Source: Magnolia sinica (lineage: Eukaryota; Streptophyta; Magnoliopsida; Magnoliales; Magnoliaceae). Taken from it: 64,000 nucleotides of DNA. This document shows positions 5,610 through 61,399 of this stretch, piece by piece. How positions within the stretch are numbered: position 1 is the first letter of the stretch; each line of letters opens with the position of its first letter. The stretch spans positions 76,474,862 to 76,538,861 of the forward strand of contig NC_080584.1 in NCBI RefSeq assembly GCF_029962835.1, in the 5' to 3' direction. A program made the translations under genes and the position numbers. Below the pieces are notes generated by a model. The model saw only the letters and a program-made list of their open reading frames with translations, did not search any database and was not told the origin of the DNA.

Positions 5610-6490
5610 TCAATACCCTCTATATGATGAATGCCTTTGTGGCATGTAACTAAATAAACCTTGTCCGTAATAGTAACCCTCTCCTCCACCTCCACCTTCG
5701 TCGCCAGATTCATCCTTCGGCTCTCTTTTTACTGATTCAACTGCAGGAGAATTCTTGGGCGACTCTGAGCTGGATGTGTCCAAAAAATGGTCGTTCACTT
5801 CTGCTAAATCAGATGGTGGGGATCCCTTCCTATCATCCTCATTCACAGATGCAAGAAGTTTTTTCGAACGCTTTTTATGACCCGATTTGTACGGGATTCC
5901 CAACAACCTATAAAATGCTGTAAGACTTTTAACAAACTTTAATGGTTTACTTGTATCTGTTTCAGCATCATGTTGTCTCGAAGGTGGATGTTGTTGTCTG
6001 GTACTTCTTGATCTGTATGCCATTTGCATGCTTTCTTTGATGGCCTCTTTATAATCTCGTTCTTCTTGCTCCCTTAAAATTCTCTCCTGTTCTTCTTCTC
6101 TACTAATTGTGGTTGTGGAAGACGTAGAACTATAGCTAGAGGTAGTTACAGTTCCTTTGCTAAACCCTTCTTCATTTATAACAGACCTACTTATATATAT
6201 TCTTTGGTTAGTTGTATTGGTTGTAGTTGCAGGGTGAGGGGTATGGGAAGTCTTTGTATTAAGATCAATAATGGCTCCAAATAAATCTCAGACCTCCTGA
6301 GAAGCTTTGCTACAAGGTGCGGCGTCTCCTCCCCAACAAGCCAAATGTAATTTGAGTCGATTTGTTTTGTTGACAAACTGTTTTCCACACAAGCTACATT
6401 CCAACTTTATCTTTCCATCCTCGGAGTAGGTTTGGACCCTATAATCCCAAATATCCGCCGATGCATCATCTTCCAATGACTTATATATCT
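5610..6490 (-). pseudogene. hAT second gene: BED-like zinc finger protein with UIM-like helix and Gly/Tyr tail
   Basis: Reading the minus strand from an AG acceptor near 6490, one frame stays open to 5610 apart from a single TGA near 6296 (probably a CGA codon changed by deamination). In order it shows a BED-like finger (IWDY, CSLCGKQF, RLKLHLACW), a Ser/Thr-rich linker, an acidic and basic helix (REEEQERILREQEERDYKEA continuing IKESMQMA), and a charged region containing KREPKDESGDE. The tail is Gly-rich and ends in HSSYRGY. No RNase-H transposase domain is present. The helix matches the ubiquitin-interacting motif spacing (hydrophobic-x-x-A-x-x-x-S), which is a pattern match only. The true start codon is not visible and is probably in an upstream exon. 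A second copy exists at 13610-13660 plus 26946-27559. The function is unknown; a DNA-binding accessory or regulator of transposition is my inference. Confidence 0.65.
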
Positions 6491-6717
6491 ACTGTATATC
6501 TAGTTAGCTTAGAACAAAAAAAAGGAAAAAAAGTTATGAATGAATGCAATTACCCAACAATATAATAAAAGATTTAAACAACATTATCTAATTGAATAGT
6601 ACTAATGAAAAAAGAGAAATATTCATCCAACTATAAAACATAACCATAAAACTTCAATGTAACTGTTTTAACAAAATTACAAATAACATGATATAACAAA
6701 ATTAGAAGGCATCAAAA

Positions 6718-8792
6718 TTATATTGTAGCTGCAGGCACTGTCTCTTCAATCTTGTTACTTTCCTCTTCATCAAACTCCTCATCAATAGAGGTCTCTTTCC
6801 CCCACATCGGACGCAGTCAATCCTGAGTACAAATGAGCGCTTCAACCGATTAAGGTGTAAGTGAGCTTCTATACTTGCTTACGACCCCACTCCCCGTACT
6901 GAAAGTGAATCCTAAAGCTACAGTTGAAATTGGAATTGATAATATGCCGCGTGCCATTAACAAGAGCACAGGTTACTGCAACTTACCAGATCTCGTCCTC
7001 CACCACTCCAAAACGTCAAAATCATCGCCTTTGTTTAGAACTAGAATATCCTCCTTAAGATACTCTTCAAGTTCTGATCTATACATCTGTGCTCGAGTCC
7101 CTTTCAGCTGTGTATAGTAAGATATGAAATCATCTATCGTGTCTTCTTGTGATTCATCAACAGCAGAACTAGAACTCACATGAGGAGATTGTTCTTTTAC
7201 GGCACATGCATAGAAATTGTACAATTTACTGGCTGCACCAGAAATCTTTTCGGCCTCAGCAACACCCATCACACCATACAACCTATTACATATGAAGCCA
7301 ACCATAAGCATCTTGTACCAAGGATCAAGAATGACCGCAAAACCCATTATCAAACTATACTCAGACCAATACTTATCAAACTTTACTTGCATACCCATGG
7401 TCATGAATTGTAAAAGTCTTGTCCACTACTAGTTTTATGCAAGGTATCTTTTACCTTCCAAAGTTTAGGTAGAAATATATTTGCTGTTGCATACTTACAA
7501 CCCGAAAATTTCTTCATGCTGTTGTAAAAAATAGAAAAGAACTTACGAACTGATTCAGGTCTTGACCAGTCATCTTCAAAAGGCAGTCAAATATACGCAC
7601 TATCACGCTCCGCATAGTGAGAGAAGGCAGGTCTCGAATCTATCGCTGAATCCAACATTTCAAAAGTTGAATTCCAACGTGACGTGGCATCTAACTTCAT
7701 CGTTCTTTGAGTTGACAAATTCAACCGCTTCACGATCTCATTCTATGCATGTAATCATAAAGGTGACCCACGTATATACTTCACACTCTCTCTTATGTTT
7801 TCGATCGTGGGATCGATTGTTTTAAGGCCTTCCTGTACAATCAAGTTTAAGATGTGGGCACAACACCTAACATGAAATATCTTTCCATAAAAATACAAGT
7901 CACCGATGGCCTTAAACTAGTTGTGCAAATTCACTATCACGCTATTATTTGCAGAGGCATTGTCTAGTGTAATTGTCGAGATCTTCTTCTCAATTCTCCA
8001 CTCCATTAGACATCTGTTTATGCAGTCTGAAATCATCAAACCACTATGAGGAGGCGCAAGATAACAGAAATTTATTATTCTCTTGCAAAGCCTCCATTTT
8101 GCATCAACGTAGTGACTAGTTAGGGACATATACCCCTTTCGTTGATTGGATGTCGTCCACAAATTTGATGTCAGGCTAATTCGGGAAATCGTGGCCAACT
8201 CTCCTTTCAACTTGACCTCCTCGCCTTCATACATCCTCATATACACCCTCCTGATTGTTGTATGAGAGACCTTCTCGTATTTGGGGTTAAGGCATTTGGC
8301 TAGTCCAACAAAAGCAGGACTCTCTACCATCTGAAATGGTCTTTTATCTGAAATAATTAACTTGGCCATCCACTCATTCACTGACTCTTTGTCATACTTG
8401 TAGATGGACACTGACGGACCCCCTACAGATTGTGAAAATGAAAGTGTTTGTTGTCTTAGCCCACTTCTCGCTTTTTTAAGATACTTTGTTAAATGTTTCT
8501 TCAATGTTGTGGTTGAACCATCTGCTTGCTTAGTATACTAACTCTTGCAATGCTTGCATTGTATCTTTACTTGGCCGTTCTTCAAGGTTACTTCTTCAAA
8601 ATCTTCCCACACTGTCGACCTCTTTTTCCTATTTCCCGCAACATGTGACTGTGTGGTACTAGTATTAACCACGTCGACGGGTACCTCTCCATGTTCAACA
8701 CCTAATCATTCATCTTCAAGGATCATTGGTGATGTAATTGATCGACCACCAGGGGTCGGGGACAGGGTATTGGAAAGACCCTCGCTTTCCAT
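6718..8792 (-). pseudogene. hAT transposase, RICESLEEPER/DAYSLEEPER type, degenerate
   Basis: The reading begins at an ATG (8792). The N-terminal BED finger shows VWEDFEE, CKHC and TLKKHL. The central RNase-H-fold region shows LTSNLWTTSNQRKGYM and CCAHILNLIV, followed by VKFDKYWSEYS. The C-terminal hAT dimerisation domain shows SELEEYLKED, LSIPISTVA, YRSSLTP and LICTQDWLR, and the frame ends at TAA 6720-6718. That is the full domain order and roughly the full length of the plant family. At least eight internal stop codons and at least one frameshift (between 7900 and 7404) break it, for example after EDE, CKHCKS, NLHN, GKLQ and SLTP. Excision and integration of TAGAG-ended hAT elements would have been its job. 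No intact copy is in the window. Confidence 0.9.
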
Positions 8793-8852: not shown

Positions 8853-9660
8853 ACTAAATCCTAAATTAGTTACCCATCTAAGGTTAGATAGATTGTAATA
8901 CTTTCATATTCTCATTTAAACGTCCACACTGAAAATCCGGCAGCATCTCCTCATGCCTCTCCAGATAAGTTGATCTTACATTACATTCCGATGTCAAATT
9001 CTAAAGCAATGTAAAGATATTTGGCATTGGATATGAAACGAAAGAAACATATCCAGAAAGAAACAAGGAGATGGACCGCGGATCAAGCATGAACATTTAA
9101 AAAGGTTATATGAAAGCATACTATCCATCTAACCTTGAACTGTCCAAAAAGGGACAATTTTAGTGATTTCTATGATACCAAAAACACACTATATCTATGT
9201 ATGGCCACATAGAAATTCTCAAACGGGTAACTAATTATCTAACTTACAAGTAACAACTAAATCCTAAATTAGTTACCCATCCAAGGTTGGATAGATTGTA
9301 ATACTTTCATATTCCTATTTAAACGTCCATGCTGAAAATCTGACAGCATTTCCCCATGCCTCTCTAGATAAGTTGATCTTATATTACATTCCGATGCCAA
9401 ATATCTAAAGCAATGTAAAGATATTTAGCATTGGATACGAAACAAAAGAAACATATCCAAAGAGAAATGAGGAGATGGATCGCGGATCAGGCATGAACAT
9501 TTAAATAGGTTATATGAAAGCATACTATCCATCTAACCTTAAACTATCCAAAAAGGGACAATTTGAGTGATTTCTATGCCACCAAAAACACACTATATCT
9601 ATTTATGGCTACATAGAAATCCTCAAACGGGTAACTAATTATCTAACTTACAAGTAACAA
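8853..9660. repeat. Tandem duplication, unit about 403 bp, two copies
   Basis: ACTAAATCCTAAATTAGTTA begins at 8853 and again at 9256. The two units (8853-9255 and 9256-9660) align end to end with scattered substitutions. It lies upstream of the transposase start, where a promoter would be expected, inside the inner hAT. No coding potential is seen. Confidence 0.9.
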
Positions 9661-13609: not shown

Positions 13610-13660
13610 AGGAGATTTAATTGACCTGAACATTCTTGACTCAAATACAAAGACTTCATA
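13610..13660 (+). pseudogene. Second-gene fragment of outer hAT, 5' side of CACTA insertion
   Basis: AATACAAAGACTTCATA aligns to the second gene of the inner hAT (minus strand near 6265-6250), where the same codons read DLNTKTSHT. The homologous sequence resumes at 26946 on the other side of the CACTA element, showing that the CACTA inserted here. Confidence 0.75.
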
Positions 13661-13985
13661 CACTACACTAAAATGGCAAAAATCTCTTGGTTTAACGACG
13701 GATTTAATCCGTCGCTAACGGAAAAGGTCCATCGCTAAGCTCATTTTTCTCGAATATCCGTAGTCCAAATGTCATGGAATTTAGCGACGGAGCAAAATTT
13801 GTCGGTAAAATCTGATTTACGACGGATTTTAGTCCGTCGTAACTAGGCGATGGACGAAATCTATCGTAAATTTTAATTTAGTGACGAGAAATGAACAGTT
13901 GCAAATTCCCACCCAAAATACCAAAATGGTGGGCTTTTCAGTTGATCTTGCGACGGATCAGGTCCGTCGTAAAAGGACTTTTGCC
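13661..13985. repeat. CACTA left terminus and subterminal repeat array
   Basis: At least five copies of a GACGGATT...AATCCGTCG type motif occur in both orientations after the CACTA terminus. Such arrays are the binding sites of the TNPA-type protein in En/Spm elements. Confidence 0.85.
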
Positions 13986-13989
13986 TTAA

Positions 13990-15110
13990 CATTATTTTTT
14001 TTTCATTTTTCTTAGAATATGGTGGAAAGTTGTTTTTTTGTAGTCTAATAATTGTTTTTTAATAGAATTTCAGTGGCTTAATTGTACATATTTGTATCTA
14101 AGATTATTTTTTAACAATTGATTGAATGCGAAAAGAAAATTTATTTTGTTTTTATATCAAATGAGTGGAATTTTTTTATTTTTATTTTTGTAATTTAAAA
14201 CTAATATTTAAATGATTTGTAATATCACATGAAAAAGAATATTGAGAAGTTTAAAAATTTTAACAATGTTTGAGAAAAAAATAGATTTTGAAAAAATAAA
14301 AATCGTGATTTAATAAAAATCTATTTTGTGGGAACAAAAAAGAATATTTAATAAAGTTGATAAATTTGAAAAAAAAAAAAAGCATTTGATTTTAAGAAAA
14401 AATAATATCCTGAAAAAGAAAATTTAAAATACTTAAAAAATGTGAAAATTTTCACAATGTTGAAAAATGAAAATATTTTTAAAAAGAAAATGAGAGTTTG
14501 AAATTTGAAAATTAAAAATAAAAATTGTGAAGTTCAATAAAAATTGACAAGTTCAAATAAAATGCTTTTAAAAAAAATTGAGAAGTGAAAAAGAATTGAA
14601 AATTTTTAAAATAAAACGATATTAAAAAATTGATACTTTATCAAAAAACAAACATTTTGAAACGAAAAATAAATAAGTTGAAAAATTTTGTGATTTTGAA
14701 AAATAATTGAAAATGTTCAAAATTCAAAATTAAAAGAAAAGGTTATTTATAAAAACACTAAGATTTTGAAAAAATATATATAATTTTAAAAAAAGAAATT
14801 TTGAAAAGTTGAAAACAACATGATGCTTTTGAAGAAAAAAATCGGCATTTAGGAATTTTTGAGAAAAAAAATTAAAAATTGTGAAATTTTAAGATATTTT
14901 GAAAATAAAAATTCAGAATTTGTATTTTAATTTATTTTTTGAAATATTTTATAATAAAAATGATATTTTGTTAAAAGTTTTCAAAGAAAAATTAAGAGTA
15001 AAAAAATAAACCTTTTGAAAAAAAAATGTCATTTTTAAATGGAAATTGATATTTATCTGTGAAAAAATATTTTTTTAATAAATTATTGGGCACATCCTCT
15101 AATTGAACAT
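13990..15110. other. AT-rich low-complexity stretch inside CACTA
   Basis: This is about 1.1 kb of very AT-rich sequence dominated by GAAAATTTTGAAAA-like words, with no open frame of interest and no recognisable repeat boundary. Confidence 0.7.
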
Positions 15111-15349
15111 TTAACCGTTTTTGGACAATCGAATTAGTCCAGACTGAAGAGTAAATAACTTCATATGTTTAAATGAAATTTCTCTCAAATTGTTAATCAA
15201 TCTTGTATTCCCAATACCTTTCTCACATGTAGCTAGCCTGATTGGGGCCAGTAACTAGTCAAATTGAGGGTATTGATCAATAAAATAGAGTGAATGGACT
15301 ATACATATAAAATGGGCTAAGTATTATTGTCAAAATTGTGACCCAACTT

Positions 15350-17650
15350 ATTGACCTCGCGAGAACCTACGAATTGATGTTAATAAGTTTTGTGAGCCCC
15401 ATCATGATGTGTGTCGAACATCAACACTGTGCATTTAATGTGTCCCCTTTAGGTTATGAGATATCTCAAAAATCATCCGTAAATGAAACTCAAGTGGACC
15501 ATACCATCTAAAACCATGTCAAGACATCATAAAAAATATAAAAGCACTTGGTGAGGCCCACATGAGTTTTGGATGTGGCTAAAACTTGGTTTGACCCCTC
15601 ATCCAAGTGGGACACATAATGAGTAGGTTGGATATGTGAATCACATTAAGGCAAGCCCAATATATGATTATGAATGTTTTAAGGAAACCCCTCTACATTT
15701 AGGTGAGTTAGCCATTACCTTTACCAAAGTAAACTTTGTGGGGTCCACCATTATTTATTTATTTTATCCATTTCGTTTATCCACGTTAACAGATAATTTG
15801 AGGTCTAAAGAACAAAAAGGAAGCATATCCAAAGCTCAAGTGGACCACACCACAGGAAATAGTGTAATTGAACCTCTAACATTGAGAAATTCTTGGAGGC
15901 CATAGAAGTTTTTAATCAAGCAGATGTTTGTGTTTTCTCTTCATTTATATATATTTGATATTATGAATAGGTTGGATGGCAAATAAATATTACTGTGGGC
16001 CTAAGGAAGGTATCAATGGTGGAAATCATTATTCCACATTGTTTCGTGTGGCATGGTCCACTTGATTTTTGGATTTACTGAAAATTTGGGATCAACCCAC
16101 ACCGTTCATCCATTTTTCAAGATAATTCAGAGAATTATTCCAAAAATGAATCATTTCCAAAGATCAAATGGACCGCACCACAAATACCAGCATGGATGGG
16201 AACGGATTGGCTACTCCCCTGCCACCCACTCGTTGGCTAGTATTCGGTGCTATGTGGGGCCCACCATGATGTATGTATTTCATCCATTATGTTCATCCAT
16301 TTTTATCGATCATTTTAGGGCTTGATCAAAAAAATGATATGGATATAAACCTAAGGTGGACCACATCATAGGAAAACAATATTGATTGGATATCCACCAT
16401 TAAAATCCTCTTAAGGGCCACAGTACTGTTTATTTGACATCCAATCTGTTGATTAGATTATAAAGGCCCTGATGAAGGGAAAAAACAAAGATCAGCTTGA
16501 TCCAAAACTTTTATGGCCCCCAAAAGGGCTTCAATGGTAGATGTTCAATCCCCCACTGCTTTTTTCAATGTGGTCCACTTGATGGTTAAATCCGGCTTAT
16601 TTTTTGTCTCAAGCCTCACGACGAGCTCGCTAGTTGGATGGATGGTTTGGATATAATACATACCTCACGATGAGACCCACAGAATTTGCTGACGTCAGCC
16701 GACTATTCATCTCCCTTCATTTGGCTGGAAACGGATTGGCTACTCCCCCTGCCACCAGCCCCATGGTTGGTGGTCAGTGCTATGTGGGCCCCACTATGAT
16801 GTACATGTTTCATCTATTTCGTTCATCCATTTTTTTAGATTATTTTACAGTTTTATACAAAAAATTAGTGGGACATAAATCTCAGGTGGACCACATCACA
16901 TGAAGACAATGGCGATTGGATATCCACCATTAAAATCCATCTTAAGGCCCACTGTACTGTTTATTTGACATCCAATCTATTGATTAGGTCATACAGGACC
17001 AGATGAAGGGAAAAACCAAAGATCAGTTTAATCCAGAACTTTTATGGCCCCCAAAAGGTTTTTAATGGTCCACGCTCATTCAACATTGTTTCCTGTAATG
17101 TGGTCCATTTGAGATTGGGGTATACCTCATTTTTAGTCTTATACCATAAAATTTTCAGGAAAAATAAATGGACGGCATGGATGAAACACGTACGTCATGT
17201 TAGGGCCCACAGAGCACCGATTACCGGCCATTGGCTGGTCGCCACATTTTATCGGGACACGGATTTCCTGCTAAAGCCCTTGGTGTCCTGCGCAAGGATG
17301 CTGGGTGGGGCCCAACACTATGTGTTTGGAAAATCTACTCCGTTAATCTATTTTTAGAGATCATTTTAGGACGAGACTAAAAATGAGTTGGATCCAAAAA
17401 TCAAGTGGGTCACACGAGAGGAAACAGTGGGGAAACAAATACCTACAGTTGAAACATTCTGGACTCCACCTTGATGTTTATATGCCATGCAAATAGTTTA
17501 TAAGTTCATTAACACTGGGAATAAGTGAAAATACAAAAGAAATATTAAAAAAAAAGAGCCTGAAACAAAGCTTTTTATGGATACGTATTATTTCCACTGT
17601 TTTGTTGGTGTGTCCCAATTGAGTATTGGATATTCTTCTTTGTTATTATT
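15350..17650. repeat. Cluster of the dispersed magnoliid-type repeat
   Basis: Several diverged units carry the same ordered landmarks: GGGGCCCACCATGATGTATG, then TTCATCCATTTTT, GGTGGACCACATCA, and GATGAAGGGAAAAA. Parts occur in the inverse orientation as well, for example GGACGGCATGGATGAAAC near 17170, suggesting a fold-back structure. There is no coding sequence. Confidence 0.75.
16202..17259. repeat. Tandem duplication, unit about 529 bp
   Basis: ACGGATTGGCTACTCCCC starts at 16202 and at 16731. The following roughly 400 bp of each unit align with modest divergence. The duplication sits within the dispersed repeat cluster. Confidence 0.8.
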
Positions 17651-17704
17651 ATGTTTTATTGTTTTATTTTAAAACAGATAAACGGAAGGGATTCGATAAG
17701 TAAC

Positions 17705-17876
17705 CTCTGAGTGGACCCCACAAGGCCCAAGAGGTACATTGATTTATATCTGCCGCAGACCACCGATTCATTTTCAGCCCTTTCTTACACTAAAAGCTCC
17801 CAAACCCAATTTCGCCCATTTTTATCTCCCTCTCTCAATCTCCCTCTCCCTCTCTACTCCCCTTTTCTTCGATCTC

Positions 17877-17920
<44 letters not shown>

Positions 17921-18235
17921 GGAGATCGGCGTCGGCCAGATCTGAACCGTTTTCACTCTCTCCCTCTCAGGTTTTAATGGCGGTCAAATGTCTGTAAGTG
18001 TGGAAGAACCCAATCAATCCCCGCCATTTCTAATCCTCTTGGATCGAGATCTCTTCCAATCTCAATGGCTTCCACATCTTCCCTGTCTCCTCCATATGCT
18101 CTCGAGATCCGAGACCAGTACGACGAGAAAGAGGATTTCACCGACAACAAATGCGCTTTCGTTGCGCTAGCTCTTTGCCCTTGCCTCGTGATTCTCATCA
18201 TTGTCGTCATTGTTGTGTCAATCGTCCTTATGGTA
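17705..18235 (+). pseudogene. Candidate captured promoter/5' UTR and first exon, protein unidentified
   Basis: A pyrimidine-rich leader ending in a (CT)n tract (about 17880-17916) precedes an ATG at 18065. The frame runs about 56 residues to a consensus splice donor, ATG|GTAAAG, near 18231. The peptide has a short polar N-terminus (containing RDQYDEKEDFTD) and one strongly hydrophobic helix (LVILIIVVIVVSIVLM), so it would be a membrane-anchored N-terminus. I do not recognise the family. It is upstream of, and in the same orientation as, all the captured exons that follow. It is probably the 5' end of another captured gene. Confidence 0.4.
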
Positions 18236-18239
18236 AAGC

Positions 18240-18754
18240 TCCGCATCTTCTGCCACATCCCTATCCACAGTCTCTCTAGTCTCATTTCTAAGAAGAAATA
18301 CCATGCCTAAATGATTCTAGTGCTTTTTTCTATGGTTTGGATTGGCAGTACATGTTTGTTGTTTAGGGTTTTTCTTGATGCTTTCAGGTTCTGGGGTTTT
18401 GAGTGGCATGTAAAGAAGATTGGGTTTGAGATCTGATGGATTTGAGTTGAAATGTATATGATTGTGCCATCATACTATGAAAAGCCTGATTCACTTACTG
18501 TATTTCTTGATTTTTCCATCCTGACATTGTGTGAAAGTTTCTGGATTTTCTCTGTATTTCTTGAAGTTCAGCACAGTAGATAACCTGATCTAATTGACCT
18601 CATTCTTGCATAAACATTCTCCCCATTGCTTTGCTTTTGCTGTTTGTCATGACAGGTGAAATATTTTGTGTTTAATTTGCTCAATTGTTCTGGATTTTGG
18701 GTGCATTAAGGACCGGTGTAGATGTGAATGATTGAACTATTGCATTGGTGACAG
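18240..18754. other. Intron-like sequence between captured exons
   Basis: T-rich sequence with intron-like composition runs from the donor near 18231 to the acceptor ACAG at 18754. No other exon is recognised. Confidence 0.4.
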
Positions 18755-18865
18755 GTGCTGAAGGATGGACTTGCAACTTTACACATTCCCTATGCATATG
18801 GATTTGCAATTATCTTGCTCACTGTTATTGTGAAGGTGGCTACATTGCCGTTGATAAAGAAGCAG
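18755..18865 (+). pseudogene. ALB3: Captured exon of ALBINO3 / Oxa1-YidC thylakoid insertase gene
   Basis: This 111-bp open exon of 37 codons is bounded by an ACAG acceptor and a CAG|GTGAAT donor. It reads VLKDGLATLHIPYAYGFAII then LLTVIVKVATLPLIKKQ. This is the start of the conserved membrane domain of chloroplast ALB3, which inserts light-harvesting proteins into thylakoids. Only this single exon, of the several in the family, is present. The frame is intact. The neighbouring exons expected for ALB3 are missing and the next recognisable exon downstream belongs to enolase, so it is a captured fragment rather than a gene. Confidence 0.85.
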
Positions 18866-20103
18866 GTGAATGACTCCATTGCCACTCTAATATATAGAAA
18901 AGCGAATGTTGACTTCTAATTCTTAAACATGTTAAATATAATGTTTTTAGTGTAGATTGATTGTGAAATACTGGGAGGAGTGTATCTTCTTATTTATAAG
19001 ACATCTCATGCATGAATAGTTTTCAAGAATTGGTTTTAGCTTTTCTTTTCTTTTTTGTTTTTTAATTCATTTGTACTGACTGGATTTTAGTGGGTGGGTT
19101 TCTTATTAGCACTGGACTCTTGAGCAGAAATGGTAATGGCACTGATGGTAGGTTGGGTATGCAAATCCACATGTTCTTGTCATAAGTTATCTGATGCAAG
19201 GTTTTGCTTTTCTGTACTATATTATGTGCCATTTCATGTTACTATATTCTTAACTTCCTGTTTAAGTTTTCTTACTCATCAGTTGATGGTAGCATTCTCT
19301 TCCACTACATTGGCAATGTTGATGCCATTGTTCAGAAAGTAATATTTCTCATCCATTGTTATGTACATTTGAGCAAACCAATTTTCATCTAATTTCAAGG
19401 AATTCAGTTTTTTTTTTTTCCAAAGAATTTTACAGTTATTCTCTTCCAATACAGTGGCAATGTGGATGGATGGCATGATCTCCACTGGAGTAAATAAGGC
19501 ATTACATATAGTTGCTAGTACATTATTTAAATGGATTTTAAATAATCATCATGGTGAACCCTGCAAATTTAAGGGTGCCTGTCTCTCTCCCAACAGTTTC
19601 CTTCATTGTGGCCCACTTGAATAATAGGTCAGCTTGATTTTTTGGCCCTATGGCTCTAGGCCTAACGTGAGATTACACATTTGGTGTTGTAATCTAATGG
19701 AACCTTCAGTTGTCATGTTATTTTGATAGGTGTCCATGATGGGCTTTCCAAATTGGGTTGGTGTTTTCCAATGCTAGGCCAACCAGAACTTGGGTCTGAA
19801 CCCAAGTTGCAGCCCTAGACCAAGCATGCAGCTGGGCCCAACACTTCTTCTTTACTTTGTAATGGGTGCCACTGCTAGCTAACTATCATAGTAATAAAAA
19901 ATCTGCATATTTACAAATTGCTTTGAAACTAAAATTCACTCTTTTGGGTCTGTGTGTCTTCTTTCAATATGATTCAGTCCACTTGATTTATTTGATGATA
20001 TAGATATACCAATGCAGAGAAAATCTTCTTTTCTTTTTTGGTAAGTTGAAATTCATTACATGCCCACTTTATCAGTAATAATATCTGGACTGCAACATTT
20101 CAG
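18866..20103. other. Intron-like and repeat sequence between captured exons
   Basis: No exon is recognised. A fragment of the dispersed repeat lies near 19530-19720 (GTGGCCCACTTGAATAATAGG). Short open frames at 19130-19480 have no family resemblance I can name. Confidence 0.4.
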
Positions 20104-20182
20104 GATGCAGGGGGAACTTGGTGCAAATGCTATATCAGTTGTGTCAATTGCTGCTTGTAAAGCTGGTGGTGCTGAAAAGGAG
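20104..20182 (+). pseudogene. ENO3: Captured exon of enolase gene (cytosolic enolase 3-like)
   Basis: After a TTTCAG acceptor the frame reads GELGANAISVVSIAACKAGG then AEKE. This is the conserved enolase block that precedes the VPLYKHI strand, closest to my memory of plant ENO3. Enolase converts 2-phosphoglycerate to phosphoenolpyruvate. The donor is GAG|GCAAGT, the consensus of a GC-AG intron, or a mutated GT. A long (TA)n tract begins directly after it. No other enolase exon is in the element. The frame is open but this exon alone cannot encode an enzyme. Confidence 0.8.
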
Positions 20183-20187
20183 GCAAG

Positions 20188-20250
<63 letters not shown>
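20188..20250. repeat. (TA)n microsatellite
   Basis: An alternating TA tract of about 60 bp starts a few bases after the captured enolase exon, within its intron remnant. Confidence 0.95.
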
Positions 20251-20251
<1 letters not shown>

Positions 20252-22074
20252 TTATTGCCAAGCTGACCTGTTTTTAAAGCCATGCCCCAGGCAATTTTTT
20301 CTTGTGTTTCAATTTTCACTTGCTTCAATGTTTCTAGTACTTTTTATACTATTGCTCTTCAAAAATTTTACTACTTTTTTTTTTAATCCCACGGTGTGCG
20401 TGTGGGGTGTGTGCGTGTGTAAAAAAAAAAATTACTACTTTTTTATTTTTTTATTTTTCATGAAATACAACTAGGAGCAATTTCTGGCCCCTCAGCGGAA
20501 TCCTCTCCCCAAAGTTAGAGCCAAACTTAATGGAAAAGGAAGAAGAGGATGAAGCGAGAGCCACCCTAAGACACCATGTGCATTCCCTGTTTTGGGTCAG
20601 ATTTTTATTTTTAATTTTTTTTAATTTTTTATATATGGCTGACCTTAGACTGTACAGGTTTTTTTTTTTTTTTTTTTTTCCTTTTTCTTTTTCTTTTATA
20701 TATGAGCACATCTCACTTTACATATGCATGTGGCTCGTTCGATGAGTGGATTGGCTTCAGTCAGGGCACTTACACAGTGCAGCCAGCTTAGACCCAGATC
20801 TCACACCAATGTTTATACACTCACACATGTAGTTTGTTGCATACAGATGAAAATGCAGTGAACGTTCAACCTTAAATGATTCTGGTTTTAATTTCTACAT
20901 GCCAATTTCACTTACCTTTTATCTATGCAGGGAACTGCAAAAGCCTACCAACTGTGATGTGCCAAAATGACAATTTGAATGCTATTTGAAATGCTTATAG
21001 ATTCCTACCAATTGTCCATGCTCCGCATCGAAGTCATGCTCTTACTATTATCATTATCAAATTCTTTTTTTTACAAACATCATGTCAAACTTCTTTTTTA
21101 CTCTATTCTAATTTGTTTGATTTTTGTTGTCACTTTCCTTAAGAAACAGTTTGATGAGGTTGTTGGTCCAGTGATAATTAATTTAAAAAACTTCTCACTT
21201 ATTGTTCATCTCCATTTTCATCACCATCAGACTGTTCATCTTTGGAATGGGCTCCGATTGGACCATTGATATTCAACTTTAGACTAATAGGACTGTTAAT
21301 CTTCATATCGGTTCTAATAGAACCGTTCATCTTAAAACAGCTTCCAGTGGTGGTATCACCAAACACTGTTGTAGTTGAATATAGACACAAACTTATGTAT
21401 GTGACCGACATGATTCTTCAATCTTGATTATAGTTCTTGAGTATTTTATGCACAACAATTATTCTTGCATTTCCTTGTTGTTGGAGTTGATATCTTGATG
21501 TCCCGTTCTTAGAAATATGTAGTTTTTTGAATCTTCCATTGACTTGCAACTATTGAGAATGTATTTTTAGTTGTATCTTATTGGGGTGTTTCATAGTTGT
21601 AGAATGGAGATTGGACTGGTTCATAGTTGAGTCCCAAAGCATGACATAGACTATGATTATTTCATTCGTCTAGTGTGCATTGCCCCAAATGGGCCATTTT
21701 TAGAGTTGTCCCATCCCACTAATTTCAGAATCATATAGCTGACCTACAATTGGATATAGTAATCCTTCCCTACATAATATTATTATGCTTTCAATTTTGA
21801 ATAAGATGTTTATTGCTGATATCATATTTTATTAATTTCACTTGAGAAAATTATGAGAATTACCAAATGATTTTACGTGAGATACAAAAATGATTTTGTG
21901 ATTTATGTAGGAAGGGAGCTGATGTGAATGGACCAACTTCATGTGGGTGAGATCCACACTCTACATAAGGTGCAACACACTGTGCTTGGACCATTACCCA
22001 AAATCAGAAAACCCAAAGGCCTTCCATATAACAGAAGATCAGTCCTTTCTCTCTTGTTTAACTTCTGCAAGAAA
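20251..22074. other. Intron-like sequence, no exon recognised
   Basis: T-rich sequence with poly-T tracts near 20660-20690 and 21065. A possible acceptor TATGCAG lies near 20930, but the sequence after it (GGAACTGCAAAAGCCTACC) stops quickly and I cannot assign it. Confidence 0.4.
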
Positions 22075-22215
22075 CAACAGTTGGCGGCGTCAGTTCTGGT
22101 GGTCAGCTAACTACTGCTCCCAATGGTGGAGTTCCAGTACTTTCCAACTATCAGAAATCTCCCATGCCTGGTATTCCAGATTCCGAACTCAACCTGCCAC
22201 TTCCAACCATGAATG
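22075..22215 (+). pseudogene. Possible captured exon, Pro/Gly-rich, family unknown
   Basis: One plus frame is open and reads TVGGVSSGGQLTTAPNGGVP and, further on, PMPGIPDSELNLPLPTMNDL. Codon composition is GC-richer than the surroundings, as for the recognised captured exons. I cannot name the source gene. It is placed between the enolase and hydrolase exons in the same orientation. Confidence 0.35.
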
Positions 22216-22438
22216 ATTTATGGTCTGTTGTTTATAGGAAGGGAGCTTTGATTTTTACAGAGGCACCAATGTTGAGATAAAATTGATCATCTGGAATCTA
22301 TAGGTGCAAATGATCTCCTACAATCAGTTGTAGTTTAGCTTAACGTACAATCCAGCTCTCTTGCCATTGTGATGTTTGATGAAGGCGCTAAATATTTATG
22401 ATTTCATCAGCTATTTTTTTGTTTATTGCCATTTGTAG

Positions 22439-22567
22439 GCCGCTGAGAAAGGATGCCTGCCTGTGTTGATCTTGAGCATGAAGGAAAGCATACAGCAAAA
22501 CAGGCCAACTATCATATTTTTCCATGGCTCTTACAAAACCAATGAATGGTTACGGCCATTACTCAAG
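22439..22567 (+). pseudogene. Captured exon of an alpha/beta hydrolase gene
   Basis: Classical borders (TTGTAG acceptor, CTCAAG|GTAAAA donor) enclose 129 bp, exactly 43 open codons. The peptide contains LPVLILSMKES, RPTIIFFHGSYK and NEWLRPLLK. The segment around FFHGSYK is the beta strand and oxyanion turn that begins many alpha/beta hydrolase folds. The whole exon resembles the plant prolyl-oligopeptidase-like hydrolase group that has RPAVVFLHSSYK in this place. The catalytic Ser, Asp and His regions are not present. Confidence 0.7.
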
Positions 22568-22767
22568 GTAAAAGTCAAATGCTACTGAATTCTCCCATCC
22601 CTTTGTCATTATACAGAATTCAACTTTGTAAATCTATTTCAACTTTTTAAAACAGTGGGTCACACTATAGATGAGTCATAGCTCATAAACAAAAAGATAA
22701 AAGATAAAGACAAAAAAAAAGAAAAAAAAAAAAGAAAGAAAAGATAACTAGAGGATGACTATGACCA

Positions 22768-22888
22768 CCTGTAAGTTATGTTGAGGATGCAGGGGATCCT
22801 TATAGAGATCAAATGGAAGATTGTATCGGTTTAATAATGGAAGAATTGAAATCTACAGGAATTGCCAACAGTCACTCTTGCATACCAG
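22768..22888 (+). pseudogene. Captured exon of ferrochelatase gene, 2-nt deletion
   Basis: The frame reads [20 protein letters not shown] then [16 protein letters not shown]. This is the conserved region after the HGVP motif of ferrochelatase, which inserts iron into protoporphyrin IX in plastids. Near 22874 two bases are missing relative to the expected HTLAYQ codons. After the gap the sequence returns to the family frame and reaches a CAG|GTAATT donor at 22888. The upstream border of the exon is unclear because a low-complexity A-rich tract precedes it. Confidence 0.82.
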
Positions 22889-23623
22889 GTAATTCATTTA
22901 AAATTTTAGCTTTTGGTTTCTAGGTTTGATTTCCAACTGCTTTATGCTTCTCAGTTCTTCAGTTTGTTTGCCACTTATGAGACATCTAAATCACCATCAT
23001 CTAAGCCTTATCCCGACTAATTGGTGTTGGCTTTTGAGACATCTAAATAAATAATGAAAATTACATGTGCTACACCAACCAAGGCTTTAGAACTCGCCAA
23101 AACCAAGTGGAGTTGGTTTCGTTAAGGAACAAATTGACAGGTCCCTTTGAAATATGTATGTTTCAGGATGAGTTGTGTGACAGGTGGCAGTTTTAACTAA
23201 CAGAGCTGTAAACTTACATATTCCTAACTACCCAAGTCTCGGTGAGTTTGGTATCCATGATTCAGTGGTTTGTACAAGATTTCATATAGGTATTTAGCAA
23301 ATTTGAGTTGACTCAGCATGTTTTCTAGAATTGTCTTCCATTTTGGGTTCAACTGTTCTCAGTTGGATCTCTTTTTCATGTTTGAAATTGGCTTTCATTT
23401 TCATCAGTCTCTCACAGAGTCTCCATCGTCCTCTTATGTGCTTAATGTTGCGATGTTGCATCATCTAGTTAGCATTATATGCCTTTACTTTTCCTTTTTG
23501 TTTATAAACCATCTTTTGAGATGGTTGGCTAAGTGCTTTTTTTTTTTTTTTTGCATTGAATGGTTGGTGTAGACAATCACTTATTTATTTATTAATTTTA
23601 GTCATGATCTCCTCCTCATGCAG
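22889..23623. other. Intron-like sequence, no exon recognised
   Basis: T-rich, intron-like sequence with a poly-T tract at about 23537. There are no recognisable exons between the ferrochelatase and RPAC1 fragments. Confidence 0.45.
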
Positions 23624-23752
23624 CTTCCTACAATTGTTATTGAAAAGGTCTTTGTTGCAAACAACACATCGTGGTCCAAGATGAAGTCCTAGCTCATAGG
23701 TTGAGCCTTATTCCCATCAAAGCTGACCCAAGGTTGTTCGAATATGTTTCAG
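23624..23752 (+). pseudogene. Captured exon of RNA polymerase I/III subunit RPAC1 gene, frameshifted
   Basis: After an ATGCAG acceptor the frame reads [17 protein letters not shown] one-base deletion near 23672 follows, and then the next frame reads [26 protein letters not shown] to a CAG|GTTGAT donor. QDEVLAHR followed by a LIPI strand is the signature of the alpha-like subunit shared by RNA polymerases I and III (RPAC1/RPA40). Only one exon is present and it is broken, so no function is expected. Confidence 0.85.
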
Positions 23753-25114
23753 GTTGATAGTTCCTTGACTCTCTTCTTCTTATTCTTCTTCTTCCTTTTA
23801 TTTTATTTATTTATTTATTTATTTATTTTTTTTTTTTTTTTTGCTTTCGTTAATTTGAATTGGGCTTTTTTATACATTGATTTTTTTGTATGTATGTATT
23901 AGGTACTTCTTCAAGGTCTTTCTTCGAGGGATTTAATATGTGGAAGGGAGAAACTGTAATGAAGGTAAAAAATCAAAGATTATATGGTTTGCTAGATCTG
24001 TTTCAGGCATATGAATTACTGAAGAATAAGTGGAGAATTGTGAAATCTGAACATTTGAACTTTTTAACGGTCAAAATTTTATTAGCTTTTGCTCGTAGTT
24101 GCACAGTTTTTTTTAGTTTAAAACTGTTCTGGAATAAGAAAAAATACCATTCATCAAGGTTTATGTGACCTTACCAACAGGTTCAGTGGCAAATAAACAT
24201 TATGAAAATATTATGGTGGGCAGTAGGGCATTAAACACTATTGTTTCCTATAGTATATTCCACCTGAGATTTGTATCTTCTTCAGTTTTGGGCTTATAAC
24301 CAAAATGATCTAGCTACGAAAACAGATGCACGGCATGGATATAGAATACATACATCAATTCCCTAACCTGCTACCTCCAACAACTGCAACCATAATAGTT
24401 TCTATAGCCATCCTTTTTCCAAGCCATGGATGAGATGGCTAGATTGCCTGACAAAAGCGATTCTTTAAAATCATAAGCAATCCATAATAGTTTCTCGCAA
24501 ATAGATGGATCAAATTGTTGCTTAGACATATTTATGTAGATGACCTCGACCAGCCATATTTAAGGCCATTGATCAAATGGTTAATATGTCATATCAGTGC
24601 AATGTTTTAGAGGTAGCCCATAAAATGTACCTTGGACTTGACGAACAGTGTCCCAATGCAACTAGGATCATTATAACTTATAGTGCTCTGAGAGCACTGG
24701 AGCATTAGAATTTGGACTTTTATCTTTAAATTTCCTTATTTCGACACTTCGAATTCAAGTTGAGATATTTTAGGAGAGTTTTATGTGTGGGCCGATGGGT
24801 TGTAATATCAGTTGATTTGAGCTAGCAGTTAGCACTCGGTACTTTTTGTATGGTTTTAAAGCCAGTTATTAGATCATGATGTTGTTTCTGAGTGAATAAA
24901 TTGGTTTTTCTTGTTTCCTGCAATGGGCTTCAAAACCCTACAGTAGTGATTCGTCTAGAAAGCCTTCGGTTTTATTCCTTAGGCCCTCCTACGAACTGAG
25001 ATGGCACATTTATTTTTATTTGCTGTTATATCCTCATTTCTTGGCGACTATTGGATTAATCGGAAACATATTAGAGCATCTAATGTGAAATCGATCATGT
25101 CGTGCTTCATGCAG
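23753..25114. other. Intron-like and repeat sequence, no exon recognised
   Basis: A T-rich tract lies at about 23790-23845. A fragment of the dispersed repeat is at 24175-24360. An AATAAA-containing stretch near 24895 could be a captured 3' end, but nothing coding is identified. Confidence 0.45.
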
Positions 25115-25187
25115 GTAAAAAATCCATGGCCTAATTTGATGCTCATAGCGGGGTGTTGCTGAACCATTTTGGTTTAACAGAGGCAAG
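25115..25187 (+). pseudogene. Captured exon of citrate synthase gene, 1-nt deletion
   Basis: Between an ATGCAG acceptor and a GCAAG|GTAAGT donor the sequence reads VKNPWPN. A one-base deletion near 25136 follows, then DAHSGVLLNHFGLTEAR. This is the highly conserved block of mitochondrial citrate synthase that contains one of the catalytic histidines (HSGV), in an enzyme that condenses oxaloacetate with acetyl-CoA. Only this exon is present and the reading frame is broken. Confidence 0.88.
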
Positions 25188-26600
25188 GTAAGTAGTTCCA
25201 AACCTCTCTTAACAGAGCAGAATTAGAAGGGGAACAAAAAAAGAAACAAAGAAACAAGGAAAAGATCAAACTATTAGAAGTTGGGTATGACTTCTGGCGA
25301 CAGCGTGTACCAAGAGTTGGTGCACACACATATCTCCCTCCACCTAAAAATGATAGGTTATACGAAAAAAAAAAATTGGCACTGGGATTTTAAAAATCTA
25401 TTTTTGAAACACATTTAGGGCCTCTTTGTTAGCCACTCTCGAAAAGATTTGATGCATAATTCTATGAAAAGTAAATTATGAAAACTTTCCAGAAATTTGA
25501 TTTTATTTTGAAGGTTGTTTGGTTGGCACTGCTTGTTTTTCCATCTTCATAGACAATTTGTTTTCCAACTTTGGTCCCTGCCAGGTCAACTTCCTAATTT
25601 TATTTAAAAAGGAAAACTTGTTCAGAACTGATACTGCGCTCCCATCCAAACTGAGTTGACTCAGCAACTAAATCCAGAACTAGTATGAATAATGAGTGCT
25701 AAGAGTGACAAACCGGTCATGGTGAAAATATGGTGCAGAAAAAACATCTCATGGCCACCACACTACTAGCTGATATTTTATGGAAAGATTATCACAGCTT
25801 GCAAATTATGGCTTCTAAAAGCTTTAGTGGTCTCCACATTAATGGGCATCATAATTTTTCTGTTTGCTCATGCACAAATACTAGTTTGCTTCATCAAAAA
25901 GCATGTTACTGACAAATGGACAAATGACATTTAATAGTAGAATCCCAAGATGGAAGGCATACCATCAGCATCAGATGCCACAAATTAATATCATGAACTC
26001 CCTCTGATACCACCAGTAAAACATGACTAATGGATACTAGTAAAACATGACTAGTAGATGACTTGGTTTTTTAGTAGTATGCACAGCTCTTTGGCTTGCT
26101 ATTTTGTACTTTTTCTTACTTTTTTAAGTTCCGTGACCAGTAATGGAATTTCAAAACTGTTTTTGAGGCAGACTAGTGATACTTGAGTTAAATCTGATTT
26201 TTAACATGGATGATTTCTCACACAAGAATGTTTCATGCAGATTCGAATGGCTAGCACCATTCAAAGCGATGGAGTTGCTAAAGTTTGATTGGGCAACAAT
26301 TAGAAAGTCTCCACCATGGGCGATTGATTCTTGATATGATGGGATCGATGCATGTACCATGTTCCGTCAACCATTTGTGTGTTGACAATAGTGGAGGTGA
26401 GACAGTGACAACCAAACTCTCTTTGCAATTCCATGTTTCACGTTCAATTTGAAACCTATTCTGAGTTGCTGCCACTTGGCCATTTCCTCTTTATTGAATT
26501 GAGTTGTTACCAATTTTGTGAATAGTATTCTTATTAAACAATCGTGTGAATTATTTTTTGAATGACTATCAGGTATAAGATTCAAAAAAAAAGAAAAGAA
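25188..26600. other. CACTA interior between citrate synthase exon and right end
   Basis: No exon is recognised. Short minus-strand open frames at 26150-26640 have no family I can name and could be remnants of an element-encoded protein. Confidence 0.4.
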
Positions 26601-26629
26601 AATGATGATATTTTTTTTTATTCGCAGAT

Positions 26630-26945
26630 ATTTAAGCAACGGAATAAATCCGTCGCTAATTTCTGAACAAGAATCAACGACAGATTTGAGGTCCGTCGCC
26701 TACTCATATAGCGACGGACCTTATCCGTCGCCAATATTTTAATCACTACGGTTTTTCCGAATTTTAGGTACGGATTTTTTATTTTTTTGCAACGGACTTT
26801 ATCCATTGCAGATTAAAGACGGATTTTCTCCGTTAAAAAAAGAAAACCCAGTAAACAGAATGGACCAAGCGACAGACAAAATTCATCATTTATTTGGTTT
26901 TGCGACGGATTTGGTCCGTCGTAAATTCGCGATTTTGGCATAATG
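26630..26945. repeat. CACTA right terminus and subterminal repeat array
   Basis: Repeated GCGACGGA and TCCGTCGC motifs lead to TTTTGGCATAATG, a diverged inverse CACTA end. Read in reverse, it matches 61158-61500 over its whole length, including the outside phrase TCATTCAAAAAA. Confidence 0.88.
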
Positions 26946-27559
26946 CTACACTCTTCACCTTATAACTACAACCAATGCAATTAATTAAAGAATATATAGA
27001 AGTAAGCTTAGTATAAATGAAGAAGGGTTAAGCAAAGGAACTACCTCTAGCTCTGGTTTCAAGCCTTCCACAATTAGTAGAGAAGAACAAGAGAGAATTT
27101 TAAGGGAACAAGAAGAACGCGATTATAAAGAGGCCGTTAAAGAAAGCTTACAAATGACATCCAAATCAAGAAGTACCGGATAACAACATCCACCTCTGAG
27201 ATAACATGATGTTGAAGTAGGCACTAGTAAACCATCAAAGTTTCTTAAAAGTCTTGCAGGCATTTTATAGCCTGTTGAGAATCCCTCGGATCATAAAAAG
27301 CATTTGAAAAAACTTCTTGTACTTGTGAATGTGGACAATGGGAAGGCATCCCCACCATCTGATTCAGCAGAGCTGAACGACCTTTTTTTTAACACATTCA
27401 GGTCAGAGTCGACTAAGAGTTCTCCTAAAGCTGAATTAGTAAAAAGAGAACCGAAGGATGAATCTGGCGACAAAGGCGGAGGTGGAGGAGGGGGTTACTA
27501 TTACGAATAAAATTCATTTAGTTATATGCTACAAAGACATTCATCATATAGAGGGTATT
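26946..27559 (+). pseudogene. Second gene of outer hAT, 3' side of CACTA insertion
   Basis: This aligns throughout with the minus strand of 6255-5610. The helix region again gives EERDYKEAVKESLQM, and the C-terminal part is still open (27304-27510), including KREPKDESGDK, a Gly run and YYYE. A stop replaces the GQ codons found in the inner copy, then the HSSYRGY ending follows out to 27559. Several further stops and small indels lie upstream (27010-27300), so it is a pseudogene. Comparison with the inner copy shows which features of this protein are conserved in the family. Confidence 0.8.
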
Positions 27560-57177: not shown

Positions 57178-60100
57178 AGGTTCCTAAGTTGTTTAAAGAC
57201 AGCTATGAAAAGTGGTGCATCTAAATGAAGGCGTTGTTCGGGTCGCAAGAACTATAAGAGATCGTCACCAATGGGTATGTATAACCCATTATGAAGGAAG
57301 AAGCTGCCTTTACCAACGAAGAAAAAACCGCTCTCAAAAATCAAAGGAAGAGAGACAACAAGGCTTTGTTCCTCCTCTATCAAGGGTTGGATGAATCAAC
57401 TTTTGAAAAGATTGTCGAAGAAATGTCAAGCAAGTGAGCTTGGGATACCCTTGGCACCATCTTCAAGGGTGTTGATCGAGTGAAGCGGGTTTGCCTTCAA
57501 ACACTAAGAGCCAAGTTCGAAGCGGCGCACATGAAGGAAGGTGAAAGTATCTCTGACTACTTCTCACGTCTAATTGTTATTATTAACAATTTAAAAAGAA
57601 ATGGTGAAAAAGTTGAAGACATGTATCATGGAAAGGGCACTACGATCTCTCACAACCAAGTTTGAGCATGTGGTTGTTGCGATCGAAGAATCAAAGGACT
57701 TGGAAAAACTGTCCATTGAAGAGTTGATTGGATCGTTGCAAGTGCATGAGCAACGAATGCAAAAGAATGCTGGTTCAATGCTTGAACATGCCTTAGAGTC
57801 TAAGATGACTCTAAATGAATAAAAGAATGGCCATACACAATGAGGGGGTTGTGGCACTAGCAATCGTGTAAGAGGCAGAGGGCGTGGATATCATCGAAGC
57901 CATCAACAAAAGTTTACCAGTTTCTGTGGAAGAGGAAATGGTAGAGGCCGGTTCATGCGTGGTCGTGGAAATACAAAAAATGTTCAATGCCACAATTGTA
58001 AGAAATTTGGCTACTATGGTTTTGAGTGTTGGAGCAAATAGATCAAGATGAATGATCCAACTATGCTGAAGCATCACACCATGAACAAGAAGACTTCACA
58101 CTCCTCCTTGCACAAGAAAAGGCATGTGAATGGCCAGATGCGTGGTATCTTGACACTGGTGTAAGCAACCAGATGAGTGGTAACAAAGAACTGTTCGTGG
58201 AACTCACAGAAGGAGTTTGTGGCAACATGAGTTTTGGCGACTCATTAAAGGTACCCGTGATAGGTAAAGGAAAAGTTAAAATCTATCAGAAGAATGGTGA
58301 GCCAAATTACATCTCTAATGTGTATTACGTACCAAATATGAAAAATAACATCCTCAGTATCGGCCAACTCCTTGAGAAGGGGTATGTCATACACATGGAG
58401 AACTATTCTCTCTCTATAAGAGATGCTCACAGGAGACTTGTGGCTCAAGTTCAAATGGCGAAGAATCGCATGTTTCCGCTCCATATTAACATAAAGGCTG
58501 ATAAGTGCCTCTATGGACTCGTGAAGAATGATTCATGGAAATGGCATCTTTGTTTTGGGCATCTCCATTTCAGTGGCCTTAAACTCTTATCCTCATCAAG
58601 CATGGTGCATGGCTTGCCGGCTATTAAAGCTCCAGAACATGTGTGTGAGGCGTGCACACTCGGCAAGCAACAAAGGAACTCCTTCTCAAGTGGAGTGTCC
58701 AGAAGAGAAGAGGAACCACTTCAGTTGGCTCACACTGATATTTACGGACCACTTGAAACATCCTCTCTTAGAGGTAATAAATACTTTATTACCTTCATTG
58801 ATGATTTCAACAGAAGAATTTGGGTATATTGCATTAAAGAAAAATCTTCCACTTTCAATATCTTTCAATTTTCAAAGCTCGTGTTGAAGTTGAAAGTGGT
58901 CATAAAATTAAAGTACTTAGATCTGATAGAGGTGAAGAGTACACCTCAAATGCATTTCGAGATTTTTATAGGGAACAAGGCATCAAGCAGCAACACACTG
59001 CAGCCTACACACCACAGCAGAATGACATTGCAGAATGAAAGAACCGCATCATCCTTGACATGATAAGAACCATGCTCAAAGAAAATGACCTAACAGAGCT
59101 TCTGGGCAGAGGCAGTCACATGTACTGCCTACTTGCTCAATCGGTGTCTAACCAAGAGCGTAAGAAACATTACACCATAGGAGGTATGGAGTGGTCACAA
59201 ATCGAGCGTGGCGCACCTAAGGATCTTTGGGTGTGTCACCTACACTCAAGTTTTAGAAGTAAGAAGAAGGAAACTTGATGATTGTGGCAAGAAATGCATC
59301 TTCATCGACTACAGTGAAGAATCTAAAGCTTACAAGCTCTACAATCCACTAACCAAGAAAGTGTGGTGAGTAGAGATGTGGTCTTTAGTGAGGAAGAATC
59401 TTGGAAATGGAACGATGAAGAATCGACCAAAGATATTCAAGTCGAAATAGAAGAACATGAAGAAAGGCATGACCGTCAAGAGCAAACGCCCGCAACACCT
59501 TCTTCGGCCGTATCATCAATACACAGAAATCCAGGAGTACATTCCATTACTCCTGGAAGTACTCCATCAAGTCAAAATTCGGCCAACCTGTCCTCGCCCA
59601 TGGCACCTATAAAAATGAAAAGCTTAAGCGACATCTATAAACAAACTGGAGAGGTCAATCTTTTCTGCTTGTATGCAGATCATGAGCCTCTAACATTTTA
59701 GGAGGCCATAAAAGAAGAATGTTGGAGAATCGCTATGAAAGAAGAAATTCATGCCATTGAGAAAAATGACACATGGGAGTTGACTATGCTTCCTAATGGC
59801 CAGAAAACTATTGTCGTCAAATGGGTGTACAAGATCAAGTGAAATGTTGATGGTGAGATTGATCACTACAAGGCAAGGCTCGTAGCAAATGGCTACAAAC
59901 AGAAGTACGGGGTGGACTATGAAGAAGTCTTCTCTCCTATTGCTCGCCTTGACACTGTGAGGATGATTATTTCTCTTGCCGCCCATCACAGTTGGATGAT
60001 CTACCAACTGGATGTGAAATCTGCATTCCTGAATGGAATTTTGGAAGAAGAGGTCTATGTTGACCAACCTGAAGGCTTTGTTATGCAAGGGGAGGAACAC

Positions 60101-61157
60101 AAGGTGTATCGATTGAAGAAAGCCCTCTATGGGTTGAAGCAAGCTTCACATGCTTGGAATGCACGCATCGACAACTATCTTTAAGGTAACGGCTTTGCCC
60201 AATGTCCATATGAGCATACAGTTTACATCAAGAAGAATGCTCATGGCGATATGCCTATAATATGCCTATATGTTGATGATTTACTGTTTACAGGAAACAA
60301 CCGACCGATTTTTAATGAATTTAAGAAGGCCATGTTTAAGGAGTTCGAGATGACTGACAGAGGTCTGATACCCTTTTTTCTGGGCATTGAAGTGAAGCAA
60401 CAATATGGTGGCATCTATATATCTCAGAAGAAGTATGCCAAAGAACTTCTTGAAAAGTTCAAGATGGCTGATTGCAATGCCGTAAACATGCCTGTAGCAA
60501 CATGCTTAAAACTGACAAATGACAGATATGGAAGAAGCGTTGATTCGACTATGATCAAGAGTCTGATTGGAAACCTAAGGTACCTCACAATCATAAGGCC
60601 GGATATCATCTATAGTGTTGGGCTTCTAAGTAGGTACATGGAAGCATCAAAAGAATCACACTGGCTAGCTGCAAAAAGAATCCTCAGGTATGTCAAAGGA
60701 ACAATGGAATTCAGTCTTTTCTATCCATACGATGATGAAGTAATGTTGTATGGATACTCAGACAGTGATTGGGGAGGTGACCAAGATGAAAGAAAGAGCA
60801 TCATTGGATATGTATTCTATCTCGGAATGACTGCTTTCACATGGAATTCGAAGAAGTAGAGTGTGGTCGCCCTGTCCACATGTGAAGCAAAAAACGTGAC
60901 AACATCGTCTACTGTTTATGACAGAATTTGGTTGAGAAACCTGCTAAAGGAGCTGAGGCATCCGCAGGAAGGATCCATAATCATATATGTGGATAACAAG
61001 TCAGCAATCAAGTTAGCCAAAATTCCGGTGCAGCATGGAAGAAACAAACACATTGATACCCGATACCATTTTTTGAGAGATCATGTGAAGCAGAAAATGA
61101 TGAAATTAGAGTATTTTCATACTACGGAATAGGTGATGGATATTTTCACAAGGCATT
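57178..61157 (+). pseudogene. Ty1/copia gag-pol polyprotein, degenerate
   Basis: Domains come in copia order. Gag (57190-57830) shows KALFLLYQGLD and [21 protein letters not shown] zinc knuckle follows near 57988 (CHNCKKFGYYGFEC, His replaced by Tyr), then protease (WYLDTG near 58145) and the GAG-pre-integrase region (WHLCFGHLHFSGL). The integrase start is HTDIYGPLE and FIDDFNRRIW. Reverse transcriptase (59700-60480) shows [28 protein letters not shown] and YVDDLLFTGN. RNase H shows YSDSDWGGD and IYVDNKSAIKLA. At least eight stops and several frameshifts disable it. The reading stops inside the last conserved block (MDIFT) where a CACTA end begins at 61158. It lies antisense to the receptor kinase and within its first intron. 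Confidence 0.92.
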
Positions 61158-61390: not shown

Positions 61391-61399
61391 GAATACAAA

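Follow-up and report, generated by a model that had tools for sequence, protein, structure and literature searches.

The 64,000-nucleotide stretch of Magnolia sinica DNA analysed here (the window) contains on its plus strand a 13,285-bp element at 13661..26945, delimited by comparing its termini with those of family copies and with a colinear sibling on contig C16. Its left part (13661..17580, plus strand) is, by family comparison, a CACTA body common to other family copies; in the 20 other copies read, the main colinear match of this body stops between 15421 and 17580. The right CACTA end (26481..26945, plus strand) is 86% identical to a family end at 61158, with 282/327 aligned bases over the whole comparison. 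The family left terminus is CACTACGCCAAAATGG in four of the five plus-strand family loci examined; the window element begins at 13661 with CACTACACTAAAATGGC, which has two changes relative to that terminus and a short deletion just inside, and it ends in CATTATGCC, which aligns gap-free with CACTACGCC of the family end at 61158, again with two changes. A first reading that placed the start at 13666, with CTA as the target-site duplication, was rejected because the family copies place the terminus at 13661. The inverted termini read CACTA on the left and CATTA on the right (one change in five), in keeping with the CACTA superfamily, and short subterminal repeats in both orientations, a further feature of that superfamily, are present at both ends. 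These CGACGGA/TCCGTCG repeats lie at 13696-13969 and 26649-26921, with a further cluster at 61.2-61.4 kb, and just two such motifs occur in the remainder of the window. No Pfam match to a transposase was found in the element, in scans of long frames that were insensitive; such absence is expected for a Pack element.

The element is flanked by ATA on the left (13658..13660, supported by the sequence and by contiguity of the hAT-like flank) and by CTA on the right (26946-26948), a target duplication that matches at two of three bases. In a hAT-like paralogous stretch at 5.5-6.3 kb, the homology to the left flank ends at 13661 and that to the right flank resumes at 26955, with 3 bases between; the left-flank match is short (about 50 bp), with a score of 37 against a maximum of 29 in 200 shuffles. 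The flanks join in the paralogue, and the CACTA element sits inside a copy related to the hAT-like stretch at 5610-8537, where ORFs on the minus strand resemble a hAT transposase, a label given by eye from the ORFs with no family search behind it. Both positions proposed in the first-pass annotation as CACTA ends are thus true termini, on the evidence of the family copies and of flank contiguity. In the opposite orientation, 61158-61510 holds another end belonging to this CACTA family, and the remainder of the element to which it belongs may extend past the end of the window.

Between the ends lie exons of at least seven unrelated genes, for which plant relatives were found. Single-exon scores for six of them fall under the curated whole-family cut-offs: ALB3/YidC/Oxa1 (18755..18865; NCBIfam 3.2e-4, Pfam 7.4e-4, PDB not significant), enolase (20104..20182; PDB 2.9e-4, Pfam 6.4e-4, NCBIfam 0.052), an alpha/beta hydrolase (22439..22567), ferrochelatase (22775..22888; Pfam 4.7e-5, NCBIfam 1.7e-4), the polymerase subunit RPAC1 (23624..23752; PDB 3.4e-14, archaeal subunit D in NCBIfam 1.3e-9, no Pfam match), and citrate synthase (25115..25187; PDB 2.2e-11, NCBIfam 4.7e-10, no Pfam match). 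The ferrochelatase exon has a frame break near its 3' end, a shorter piece of it gave no Pfam match, and its PDB matches were not significant; the RPAC1 and citrate synthase exons likewise contain a frame break. The hydrolase exon, without a Pfam or NCBIfam match, had three protein matches, Rhododendron and Bertholletia among them, and is 63% identical to a Rhododendron AB-hydrolase over the whole 43-residue query (E 2.9e-9). The seventh exon, of DUF707 (PF05212; 19426..19489), scored 9.6e-6, above the Pfam cut-off; a 31-bp part of this region (19451-19481) is repeated at 19294-19324 with 28/31 bases identical. All six genes named in the first-pass annotation were therefore recovered by translated or profile matches, and its count of at least six sources rises to at least seven with the DUF707 exon that it had missed. 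Pieces at 23.9 and 26.2 kb matched no Pfam family.

An AG precedes six of the seven exons (the start of the ferrochelatase exon is unclear), and a GT follows six, the enolase exon ending instead in a GC donor within AG|GCAAGT, the typical context of such donors. This agrees with the earlier reading that most exons keep acceptor and donor sites, and each of the seven resembles a single internal exon that has kept remnants of its introns. Two further candidates had been proposed at 17.7-18.2 and 22.1 kb. Open stretches exist at both places, and neither has a database match: a first-exon-like ORF of 56 codons with the donor GTAAAG (18065..18232, plus strand; no match in Pfam or the protein database, none significant in PDB) and a stretch preceded by AG and lacking a GT donor (22081..22236, plus strand; no Pfam, protein-database, or significant PDB match), which we retain as a candidate only. 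The ORF follows CT-rich, 5'-UTR-like sequence, and leader, ORF, and donor together (17.7-18.23 kb) look like the captured 5' end of some gene.

All seven identified exons lie on the plus strand, as the first-pass annotation had proposed for its own set. In an NCBIfam scan of 522-amino-acid pieces, no family was found in 18 of 18 pieces from the minus strand, and the plus strand (9 of 18 pieces, picked with the exon frames partly known) returned RPAC1, citrate synthase, YidC, enolase weakly (0.27), and, likewise weakly, the unrelated S14 (0.038). The less sensitive whole-frame Pfam scan found DUF707 on the plus strand and no family on the minus strand; such long-frame Pfam and PDB scans were too insensitive for exons of this kind, and one plus-strand frame scanned contains no identified exon. 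The sense strand of plant introns is rich in T. Among the 18 500-bp blocks between 17.5 and 26.5 kb, 14 have a negative AT skew (mean -0.113); outside the element this is true of 42 in 100 blocks (mean +0.017). The skew is strong up to about 23.9 kb (-0.150) and weak beyond (-0.025). This intron-like T-richness agrees with the plus-strand orientation of the exons, and acceptor-like motifs inside the element point weakly in the same direction (15 plus, 10 minus). A simple count of seven in seven has a two-sided probability of about 0.016 if the exons are independent, a figure that overstates the case since ALB3 and enolase also move jointly, within one block.

The genome (1.84 Gb, 127 contigs) was searched with the left end of the element; 40 of 1355 first-look candidates were scored, comprising the window copy and 39 others at 88-90%. 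One of these 39 is a colinear sibling that carries the array, a 13,404-bp copy at C16:24454404-24467807 with CACTACGCC at both ends, a perfect AAA/AAA target-site duplication, flanks other than those in the window, and the same splice sites. The 3-bp duplication characteristic of the superfamily is thus complete in the sibling and preserved at two of three bases in the window. Since the whole array lies between intact CACTA ends with its own duplication at a second site, the exons move as one CACTA unit: host coding DNA from seven gene exons sits between the ends of a non-autonomous TIR element and is mobile with them, as in Pack-TYPE elements. The first-pass annotation had considered that the exons might belong to separate insertions, and the opposite was found. 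Several independent insertions, or an assembly artefact, could in principle have set the exons side by side, and some segments are indeed repeats present elsewhere; however, the same order recurs colinearly in the C16 copy within other flanks and with its own duplication, and we regard this explanation as extremely improbable.

The other 38 scored copies have the left body in common with the window and different interiors. The array was absent from all 20 copies read over 10 kb and from all 18 probed over 1.2 kb at the expected place of ALB3, a place that an indel could shift. The right-end sequence is also present in two of the 20 copies read, several of which contain short matches to 17606-17723, 24229-24357, or 24657-24706, and one of the 18 probed copies has a 221-bp match at 67% to 24150-24357, where no exon was identified. 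The family is large, as the 1355 first-look candidates indicate, and several copies have common interiors differing from that of the window. Family copies with other interiors might yield further Pack elements or supply the transposase.

Comparison of the window and sibling copies, with gaps left out, gives 281 differences in 8700 sites of the captured region (3.2%; 96.8% identical), 223 in 3899 of the left body (5.7%), and 49 in 452 of the right end (10.8%). The CACTA ends (13661-17580 and 26481-26945) are therefore more diverged than the cargo at 17581-26480, and this holds for transversions as well (1.7% and 3.3% in the ends versus 1.2% in the captured region), so that methylation-driven C-to-T change does not account for the whole excess; ends swapped with other members of the family could be one cause. 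Within the cargo, 27 of the 867 sites in the seven exons and the first-exon ORF differ (96.9% identical), as do 254 of 7833 in the other captured DNA (96.8%). The frame breaks in the ferrochelatase, RPAC1, and citrate synthase exons are present in both copies, and in the C16 sibling the hydrolase exon contains an insertion that the window copy lacks. The exons evolve like the non-exon DNA around them, in a decay that looks neutral, and as they are no better conserved than the rest and share three frame breaks, nothing suggests a selected chimeric protein.

A domesticated chimeric gene, with one promoter and spliced exons selected for their product, would account for a first-exon-like ORF with a donor followed by exons in one orientation, for splice sites that are the same in both copies, and for the first three candidate exons joining in frame. 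Nevertheless, when the exons are joined the frame is lost at enolase, 240 amino acids is the longest reading among 512 exon subsets, and no long in-frame product spans the complete set of exons; together with the shared frame breaks and the lack of exon constraint, this makes such a gene very improbable, and a selected chimeric protein was rejected on the joined-exon frames and the copy comparison.

Parts of the array also occur outside the two full copies. At a locus on C16 near 66.78 Mb, 22489-24000 and 24900-25420 are present at 89-94%; near 33.00 Mb on C4, two pieces together cover 22330-24000 at 88-89%; and C18 and C5 hold smaller parts. Relatives of the array are thus present at two more sites besides the window and the sibling, both partly examined: the C16 copy near 66.78 Mb is known for the two stretches given, and the C4 copy likewise in part. 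Among the 40 of 54 ALB3 candidates scored, neither site has a listed match, and a citrate synthase match was absent at C4, with all seven candidates scored.

Other modules are shared more widely. With 40 of 54 candidates scored, the ALB3 segment at 18480-19260 matches in full length at no fewer than nine further loci (95-97%) and over 687 query bases at one more (94%); among these ten, five were read and represent another element, and one is the C16 sibling. All five read loci carry a block of the array (18421..21114 without 19349-19710, plus strand) as 18421-19348 joined to 19711-21114 (20987 in one), with ALB3 and enolase arranged and oriented as they are in the window, and in about 1.4 kb read upstream they show no first exon and no CACTA body. 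The DUF707-bearing segment at 19349-19710 is absent from this other ALB3-enolase element. The five loci are 96-99.6% alike in the three blocks compared, and the window and its sibling form a separate group, with 21 supporting sites in three blocks versus 11 for other groupings. A 300-bp ALB3 piece (18524-18823) recurs with fixed edges in at least 12 further places (two slightly shorter), and the ferrochelatase segment (22769..23240, plus strand) recurs whole or in its exon-bearing part in at least 18 further places (40 of 329 candidates scored). Such mostly fixed edges suggest that the ferrochelatase and ALB3 pieces are carried by other mobile units.

The citrate synthase block is low-copy, its seven matches being three array copies, one locus each on C13 and C1, and two weak partial matches. 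The C1 match covers the exon only, and C13:2025613-2026171 matches the whole 521 bp at 78%, introns included. As the introns match too, the C13 locus is probably the citrate synthase donor; no other donors were found. Because blocks recur elsewhere, parts of the array may be second-hand or may have spread onward; the array is modular, and not all exons were necessarily taken straight from genes. We tentatively propose, as a reading that falls somewhat short of an even chance, that exons travel as cassettes between multicopy element families, with splice-ready blocks in a single orientation, such as ALB3-enolase and the ferrochelatase segment, passing between a CACTA lineage and one or more other mobile lineages. 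If true, the modules of this Pack element were second-hand and did not come directly from genes.

It is also conceivable, though rather unlikely, that another element type such as a Helitron assembled the array and that a CACTA element then acquired it, whether at once or over a few steps. Helitron-captured fragments tend toward one common orientation, as seen here, and the five ALB3-enolase loci without first exon or CACTA body, like the recurrent ferrochelatase and ALB3 segments, would fit such an origin. However, the window and C16 copies group apart from the other ALB3-enolase element, and Helitron hallmarks (5' TC, a 3' hairpin plus CTRR end, no target-site duplication) are wanting: of 11 candidate 3' ends in 64 kb, two lie in the element and none is convincing, and no 5' motif occurs in the element with fewer than two mismatches. 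A nested Helitron was looked for on these grounds and was unsupported, and the element itself is not a Helitron, having CACTA ends and a target-site duplication.

We conclude with high confidence that the locus is a non-autonomous Pack-CACTA transposon whose exons, all in one orientation, come from at least seven unrelated genes. Against this stand the window duplication that matches at only two of three bases, the failure to find a transposase source for the element, the lack of the array in the 38 other family copies as far as they were read or probed, the incomplete view of the C16 copy near 66.78 Mb, and the finding of only one probable donor locus (citrate synthase on C13). Mobilization would have been by the CACTA transposase of another family member, working in trans on the subterminal repeats and the ends. 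The array may have grown by several captures, through tandem insertion with aberrant excision, which has been proposed as a Pack-CACTA capture route (PMC13317346, PMC8903248), or through break repair, and part of it may reflect uptake of exon blocks already sitting in other mobile elements. We hypothesize that the single orientation reflects capture in blocks, or else that arrays were retained if, once transcribed, they could be spliced out without harm; in soybean carrying Tgm-Express1, a normal F3H transcript is still produced (PMC1947982).

In the portions of the literature consulted, the closest parallel is Tgm-Express1, a 5.7-kb soybean CACTA element with pieces of five unrelated genes (PMC1947982), in which CACTA ends likewise surround intronic and exonic pieces with splice sites kept. 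As its five fragments are spliced as exons of one transcript, one orientation is implied there too, so that the uniform orientation of multiple sources, which the first-pass annotation considered notable, holds here and is probably not unprecedented. The Magnolia element differs in its size (13.3 kb), in its at least seven genes plus a first-exon-like piece, in its frame breaks, in its sibling copy, and in blocks common to another multicopy element. It resembles the Pack-CACTA of Arabidopsis, maize, and rice in being non-autonomous with host coding DNA from several loci; in maize, the Pack-CACTA contain the greatest number of distinct loci, and the number rises with element length (PMC8903248). 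It also resembles the Tpn1 family of morning glory, non-autonomous CACTA elements whose interior is replaced by host genic DNA, with mostly 3-bp duplications and a reported chimeric transcript (PMC5105172). Reported captures further include 140 events on wheat 3B, with 17 genes possibly captured via exon shuffling (PMC4290129), two copies of one grapevine CACTA family with a piece of one gene (PMC2528002), five CACTA elements with one or more gene fragments in a 22-Mb maize region (PMC2773423), and Chenopodium elements with fragments of one gene each (PMC8978399), so that the window element belongs to a known kind. Multi-gene Pack-CACTA are already known from soybean and maize, and the present element adds a rich example whose history is unusually tractable. 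What is new here is the modularity of the array; the literature searches covered open-licence PMC, and we make no claim that a seven-gene Pack-CACTA is unpublished.

A large multi-gene Pack-CACTA and an intact-ended sibling in one genome allow capture, amplification, decay, and exon constraint to be dated against each other, and the common modules make it testable whether exons are captured from genes each time or passed between families as ready-made blocks. Elsewhere in the window, ORFs at 58056-60859 resemble, by eye, a Copia-type retrotransposon polyprotein, and 8853-9660 holds a tandem duplication of about 405 bp at 92%.
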